From positions 1-64,000 of the forward strand of contig JACQAG010000094.1 in assembly GCA_016195085.1 (NCBI GenBank): a stretch of 64,000 nt of DNA. The letters run 5' to 3'. Shown piece by piece: positions 16,887 through 18,639 of the stretch (positions are counted from its first letter, which is position 1; each line of letters opens with the position of its first letter). The stretch comes from Pseudomonadota bacterium. Its GTDB lineage: Bacteria; Pseudomonadota; Alphaproteobacteria; SHVZ01. The notes beneath the pieces are model-generated. The model worked only from the letters and a program-made list of their open reading frames with translations, had not been told where the DNA came from and ran no database searches. A program made the position numbers and the translations under genes.

Positions 16887-17474
16887 TCAGCGGCTTTGCG
16901 CGCGGTGCCGCGCCACCACGCGCCGGAGGAGCGGCGCGTAATGCGAGAAGCCGGGCGTGCTGATACCCGCCCGCTTGCCGCCCTCGTCCCACTGCCTCAC
17001 CCTCACCGCCTCCCGGTGGTGCGGCTGCCGCTCGAAGGCGGCGACCTCATCGGCCGGCATCGGGCCGCCCTGGAGGGCGAGCGAGTGCACCGAGGCCGGC
17101 GAGAGCGTGGCGAAATAGCCGGGCTCGACCGCGCAAAGATAGCGCTTGGCCGGCACATGCAGGCGCACGCATTCGCTGACGGAATCGGGGAAGTACGCTC
17201 GCAGCACGCGAGCGCCCGCCTCCTCATGGCGGTTGTCGAGGCCGCGATCGGAGGCATCGGCGCCGAACTCGCTGGTGTAGTGGCCGATGTCGTGCAGCAA
17301 GGCGGCGGCGACGAGCTCCTCGCCGGCGCCCTCGCGCTCGGCCAAGAGCGCCACCTGCAGCATGTGCTGGGACATGGTGACGGCTTCGCCCAAATAGGAA
17401 TCGGCACCCCGCCGCTCGAGAATGTCGGCGATGAAGGCGACGATGGTTCCGTGGTCCAATCGCTCAGGCCTCAT
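16887..17474 (-). CDS. tmpB: TmpB/PhnZ-like HD-domain mixed-valent diiron phosphonate oxygenase
   Basis: 195 residues, the size of PhnZ and TmpB. Every landmark is placed as in PhnZ: Tyr27 and Glu30 (Y-x-G-E), His37, the His61-Asp62 pair, His83, His106 and Asp163. Known enzymes oxidatively cleave the C-P bond of a 1-hydroxyphosphonate, releasing phosphate and a carboxylate; TmpB makes glycine betaine from hydroxylated 2-trimethylaminoethylphosphonate. The ATG at 17474 overlaps the end of the upstream dioxygenase gene by 11 bases, so both act together. Without the partner it could have been called PhnZ; the gamma-butyrobetaine-dioxygenase-type neighbour favours TmpB. Confidence 0.72.
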
Positions 17475-18639
17475 TCCGCTTTCCCTCGTTCTCCTCTTCG
17501 ATCGCCGCCAGCGTCGAAAGCAGTCCGTCCTTGTCGGGATAGCATCCCTGCAGCCAGCGGGTGCCGGCGCCCGAAAACCGGGTGCGCGCATGCAAGACGC
17601 GGGTGTTGTCGACGATGAACAGCTCTCCCGGGAGGAGCCGGAACCTGACCACGAGCCCCGGATCCTCGATCAGCGCCGTGAAGCGGCGATAGGCCGCATA
17701 GTAGCTTGCCATCCGCTCATAGGGGACATCGGTGAAGGCGGCGGCCGAACGGCTGTTGAGGCGAATGGCGATGAGCTCGCCATCAGGCCCGAGCTCGATC
17801 ATCGGCCGCTTCGCCTCGAGGCGCACACCCGGGCTGCCGGCATATTCAAAGCGGGCGCAATGCTCACACAGCAGCCGGAATCCCTCCGGCCACTCCTCCT
17901 GCAAGAGCTCGGCCGCCCTGAAGCCGTCGACGACGATCGACTCTCCGCCCTCGACGTCATTCTCCAGGCAGGCGAGGATCTGCAAAGTCGGCACGGGGTC
18001 GCGATAGGGATTGTCGGTATGCGCCTGCAGGCCGAGATTGGTGAAGGCGAGATTGCTCGGATTCACCTCGCTGCGCACCTCGAACCAGCGCCCATAGTTG
18101 GTCTCGCGGACATAGCCGAAGAGCTCCGCCACCTCGATCAGCTGGCCGCTCGCCTGCGGCACGCCGGTCATGAGCGCAAAGCCGTAGCGCCTCACATCGC
18201 CGAGCCAGCGCCCGAGCGCCTTCCGGCTCGAGCGTACCTCGCCATAGCGGACAGTCGGCAGCTCCGGCTGCAGCCGGGAGTCCCAGCGCGTAAGCCCTGA
18301 GGGAGTCCATCCCAGGCGATTGCGCGGGGCTCGATCGTAGATGCGCTGGGCGAGCCAGGACGCGGGGAACTCGACCTCCTTCCGCTCCGGGAGGAATCGG
18401 AGGGCGAGATCGGCCGCCGGGGTGATCCGCGCATCGGCAATGGTGGTGCCGGGCGGAATGTCCGAGATGGTGATCAGCCGCTGGCCGTTGCCGGGCGAGC
18501 GGGTCTCGGCATCTCGCGCGTTGTCGCGCAGCCAGATCGCGTGAAAGCGCGTGATGCGGCCGTCCTGCCATGCGAGGCGAACGGCCCTGCCGTCCTCGAT
18601 GATTTCGGCGCCAACGATCCTGACCGCGCCCGCGATCAT
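17464..18639 (-). CDS. tmpA: TmpA-like 2-oxoglutarate dioxygenase (gamma-butyrobetaine-dioxygenase fold)
   Basis: 391 residues from the ATG at 18639, which has GGAG upstream. The N-terminal small domain (about 1-100, WLRDN near 36-40) precedes a TauD/BBOX domain with Fe ligands His207-x-Asp209 and His350, and Arg361 for 2-oxoglutarate. Relatives hydroxylate trimethylammonium compounds; TmpA hydroxylates 2-trimethylaminoethylphosphonate at C1. The zinc-binding cysteines common in the small domain of gamma-butyrobetaine dioxygenases are absent here. The overlap with an HD oxygenase gene is the main reason for the TmpA call; gamma-butyrobetaine or trimethyllysine dioxygenase is the alternative. 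Confidence 0.72.

Follow-up and report, generated by a model that had tools for sequence, protein, structure and literature searches.

The window (the whole stretch of DNA analysed, 64,000 nt, positions 1 to 64,000 of contig JACQAG010000094.1, assembly GCA_016195085.1) carries a pair of genes encoding a TmpA-type Fe/2OG dioxygenase and a TmpB-type HD oxygenase (Table 1). The first-pass annotation had placed two overlapping genes here, and its coordinates are correct. The 3' end of tmpA reads CGGAATGAGGCCTGA, with the start of tmpB falling inside this segment. tmpB lies directly downstream of tmpA, and the same order is found in relatives, where the junction is usually a four-base overlap or a gap of a few bases. 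Translational coupling of the two genes through the overlap is likely.

Table 1 Predicted genes of the tmpAB locus and their overlap in the window.
Feature	Position	Strand	Length	Basis
tmpA, 2-trimethylaminoethylphosphonate dioxygenase (Fe/2OG), predicted	17464..18639	-	391 aa	NF049936, PDB 6npb, residues, tree
tmpB, (R)-1-hydroxy-2-trimethylaminoethylphosphonate oxygenase, predicted, HD mixed-valent diiron type	16887..17474	-	195 aa	NF049941, PDB 6npa, residue conservation
Overlap of tmpA end and tmpB start	17464..17474	-	11 bases	sequence

Three genes encoding an alpha/beta hydrolase, a GST, and a TetR regulator lie upstream of tmpA (18795-20983). Their GC content is 0.57-0.62, with GC and GC3 below those of tmpAB and the other neighbours, and they are possibly a later insertion. 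No Pho-box-like pattern was detected upstream of tmpA with up to five mismatches allowed. As the first-pass annotation observed, no phosphonate transporter adjoins tmpAB and no LysR gene adjoins tmpA. Several of the closest relatives likewise have no adjoining LysR gene, while a divergent one stands beside tmpA in 42 of 80 relatives. Scanning named genomes with four aligned TmpA proteins confirmed at least 562 relatives, of which the best 80 were retained. Elsewhere in the window, a 266-aa protein without Pfam or NCBIfam match is encoded at 16046-16846 and has two paralogues in the genome, one of them in the window at 36369-37127. At 59453-63998 lies a cytochrome P450 and, after it, an ABC transporter of the polyamine type comprising a substrate-binding protein and a PotA-like ATPase.

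The closest solved structures to the window proteins are those of the Leisingera caerulea enzymes, TmpA (PDB 6npb, E 9.8e-143) and TmpB (PDB 6npa, E 5.4e-67), both matches being far beyond chance. Pfam detects TauD and a GBBH-like N-terminal domain in the window TmpA, and HD in the window TmpB. The best NCBIfam model for the latter is TmpB NF049941 at 289.3 bits, 77 bits ahead of the next-best model and 11 bits short of the cut-off of 300, which is a profile threshold and not a biochemical feature. Because this cut-off was missed, we name the protein TmpB-type on the strength of its TmpA partner and its residues. All eight residues of the PhnZ set that had been picked out earlier are present, comprising the YxxE loop (Y27/E30) and the diiron ligands H37, H61, D62, H83, H106, and D163. 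The first seven do not vary across PhnZ, L. caerulea TmpB, and 96 related TmpB partners, and the equivalent of D163 is Asp in 94 of the 96 partners. The roles of the YxxE loop and HD ligands follow PMC8177086. Within the genome, which is assembled in 95 contigs, this is the only HD oxygenase near the PhnZ/TmpB model.

Across 385 genomes of the class, a search returned 27 above the TmpA model cut-off, and a TmpB homologue directly follows tmpA in most loci whose contig continues. Among seven genomes examined from the source order, TmpA was found only in that of the window; a few plasmids of Alphaproteobacteria carry it as well. In a tree of 32 proteins, the window TmpA, L. caerulea TmpA, and 15 relatives make up one side of a branch with support of 100/100, recovered in 100% of bootstrap trees, which we refer to as TmpA proper. 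A quick tree of 61 proteins agrees. The branches of the gamma-butyrobetaine dioxygenase BBOX and of DfmD are long, leaving their own positions unsure and the placement of the window TmpA unaffected.

Pairing with TmpB varies among the relatives. Five loci (L060, L095, L101, L059, and L129) have TmpA without an adjoining TmpB although the contig continues. A Pelagibacteraceae TmpA (L105, 9126-10079) is likewise without a neighbouring TmpB and is directly followed by a gene of the 3-hydroxyisobutyrate-dehydrogenase family, making a different second step possible there. Four distant TmpA-like proteins (L012, L134, L135, and L137; 36-38% identity to the window TmpA) score above the TmpA cut-off and have an HD oxygenase downstream. 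The substrate of these distant pairs may differ.

Genes for phosphonate use are encoded elsewhere in the genome. PhnC, PhnD, and PhnE score above curated cut-offs on contig C9 (L160, G000:C9), where phnCDE adjoins a PsrA-type (PsrA/Phn) iron alcohol dehydrogenase, and PhnW, PhnA, and PhnY (phosphonoacetaldehyde dehydrogenase), for AEP, are clustered on contig C60. Neither a C-P lyase, by the PhnJ model, nor an OpuAC-type glycine betaine transporter was found in the genome, absences that are uncertain because the assembly is in 95 contigs. The first-pass annotation took the lack of an adjoining transporter as grounds to doubt the substrate; as counter-evidence this is weakened, because phnCDE lies on another contig.

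The TmpA-TmpB-like identity first proposed for the pair is supported by sequence and profile matches, by the tree, by the residues of the active sites, and by the pairing of the genes. We observe homology and orthology, catalytic residues that are intact, a pairing that is conserved, and genes for phosphonate uptake in the genome, and we consider it highly probable that tmpAB is a two-gene oxidative phosphonate-degradation unit converting trimethylaminoethylphosphonate to glycine betaine and phosphate. The Fe(II)/2-oxoglutarate enzyme TmpA would hydroxylate carbon 1 of 2-trimethylaminoethylphosphonate, and TmpB, as a mixed-valent diiron HD oxygenase, would use O2 to cleave the C-P bond, releasing glycine betaine and phosphate. 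From orthology with the characterised L. caerulea pair we infer these reactions and this substrate and, more tentatively, import of the substrate by PhnCDE. Counted against this explanation are the NF049941 shortfall, a score above the cut-off of a gamma-butyrobetaine dioxygenase model, a departure in the phosphonate-contact loop, and the lack of an adjoining LysR gene or transporter.

The catalytic centre of the window TmpA is intact in alignment with its relatives, with Fe ligands H207, D209, and H350 and the 2OG arginine R361. Four aromatic positions, Y182, F186, F199, and Y367, are kept; these correspond to the cage positions of BBOX. Two of three phosphonate contacts are also kept, N196 (N187 in L. 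caerulea TmpA) and R297 (R288), while S296 replaces N287, the numbering of the solved chain and of the paper being offset by 6 as judged from the spacing to an Fe ligand. The roles of N187, N287, and R288 in contacting the phosphonate, and those of the aromatic residues in TmpA, are from PMC9296572.

These replacements bear on the alternative that the pair carries out the same two-step chemistry with its preference shifted to another N-alkylated aminophosphonate, one less methylated or of different chain length, as a substrate variant of the pathway brought about by the contact loop and F199. The loop reads LNSRS in the window TmpA versus FNNRS in L. caerulea TmpA. Its Leu (F294L) is unique among 96 relatives, every close relative having Phe, and the cage has F199 where most relatives have Tyr; the slight shortfall of TmpB below its curated cut-off can be read the same way. 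However, Ser at the N287 position recurs in seven of 95 relatives, five of which keep an adjacent TmpB (two sequences of the set have Ala), and F199 recurs in six of 95. The remaining contacts are unchanged, and of the columns that at least 93% of relatives conserve, F294L is the only one at which the window TmpA departs. A shift in substrate is unlikely, and the TmpAB reading with trimethylaminoethylphosphonate as substrate is preferred.

Less probable by a wide measure is that the dioxygenase is a gamma-butyrobetaine dioxygenase of the carnitine pathway lying beside an HD protein by chance. The window TmpA does pass the model for that enzyme, TIGR02409, by 12 bits (426.5 against a cut-off of 414.75), and this is the annotation given to one TmpA-like gene of a public plasmid. 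However, the NCBIfam TmpA model NF049936 scores 541.8 bits (cut-off 400), 115 bits more than TIGR02409, and the pairing with a TmpB-type oxygenase is conserved in most relatives. The first-pass annotation had proposed phylogeny as a check, and the window TmpA groups with L. caerulea TmpA rather than with gamma-butyrobetaine dioxygenases: the AU test rejects a clade of the window TmpA with BBOX (p-AU 0.00117) and, more strongly, one that also takes in DfmD and all unpaired relatives (p-AU 1.4e-5). The scores, the tree, the AU test, and the conserved pairing reject this identity at the level of sequence.

The zinc cysteines of BBOX also separate the two enzymes. Their loss, reported from the first inspection, is real, the three positions being occupied by A41, D43, and T46 in the window TmpA. 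It had been taken as a hint of another substrate, a reading we reject because L. caerulea TmpA has the same A, D, and T and Cys occurs at these positions in none of 95 close relatives; absence of the cysteines is, for the same reason, typical of TmpA proper. It provides a useful mark for telling TmpA proper from gamma-butyrobetaine dioxygenase where annotation can confuse them. More distant TmpA-like proteins paired with an HD protein vary in this respect, all three cysteines being kept in four of ten, and the group that includes L012, L134, L135, and L137 has members that keep them (L012 read directly). Neither the missing cysteines nor the absent LysR gene and transporter argue much against TmpAB.

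A pair of the PhnY/PhnZ type, with 2-aminoethylphosphonate or methylphosphonate as substrate, would share the chemistry and HD family (TIGR03276, 211.9 bits) but is the least credible reading, given 289 bits for the TmpB model versus 167 for the hydroxymethylphosphonate PhnZ1 model, 55% identity to TmpB versus 36% to PhnZ, a dioxygenase whose best solved relative is TmpA, and a PhnWAY route for AEP already in the genome.

The TmpAB pathway is already known and common in Alphaproteobacteria, and the window pair is an ordinary further example that extends the known distribution of this quaternary-amine phosphonate pathway by one lineage. The two-gene form is not new, because L. caerulea tmpAB has been described as a two-gene operon (PMC10574752).

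The nearest known system is L. caerulea TmpA-TmpB (PDB 6npb/6npc/6npd and 6npa; Rajakovich et al. 2019, as cited in PMC8177086 and PMC10574752), to which the window proteins are 60% and 55% identical. The two systems share the two-gene arrangement, catalytic residues, aromatic cage, lack of zinc cysteines, and clade, and differ in the loop and cage residues described above. PhnY/PhnZ (PhnZ PDB 4mlm, 4n71, and 4n6w) likewise couples hydroxylation to C-P cleavage by an HD oxygenase, and PhnZ has the diiron and YxxE residues in common with the window TmpB; however, the HD proteins are only 36% identical and that pathway uses an unmethylated amine. BBOX (PDB 3ms5) belongs to the same fold family as the window TmpA and shares its Fe/2OG residues and its cage for quaternary ammonium, but is 27% identical, has zinc cysteines, and stands apart in the tree. 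DfmD (PDB 9j0j), also 27% identical, acts on 2-trimethylaminoethylphosphonate, the substrate predicted for the window pair, but catalyses a biosynthetic rearrangement and has Ser where TmpA has N187.
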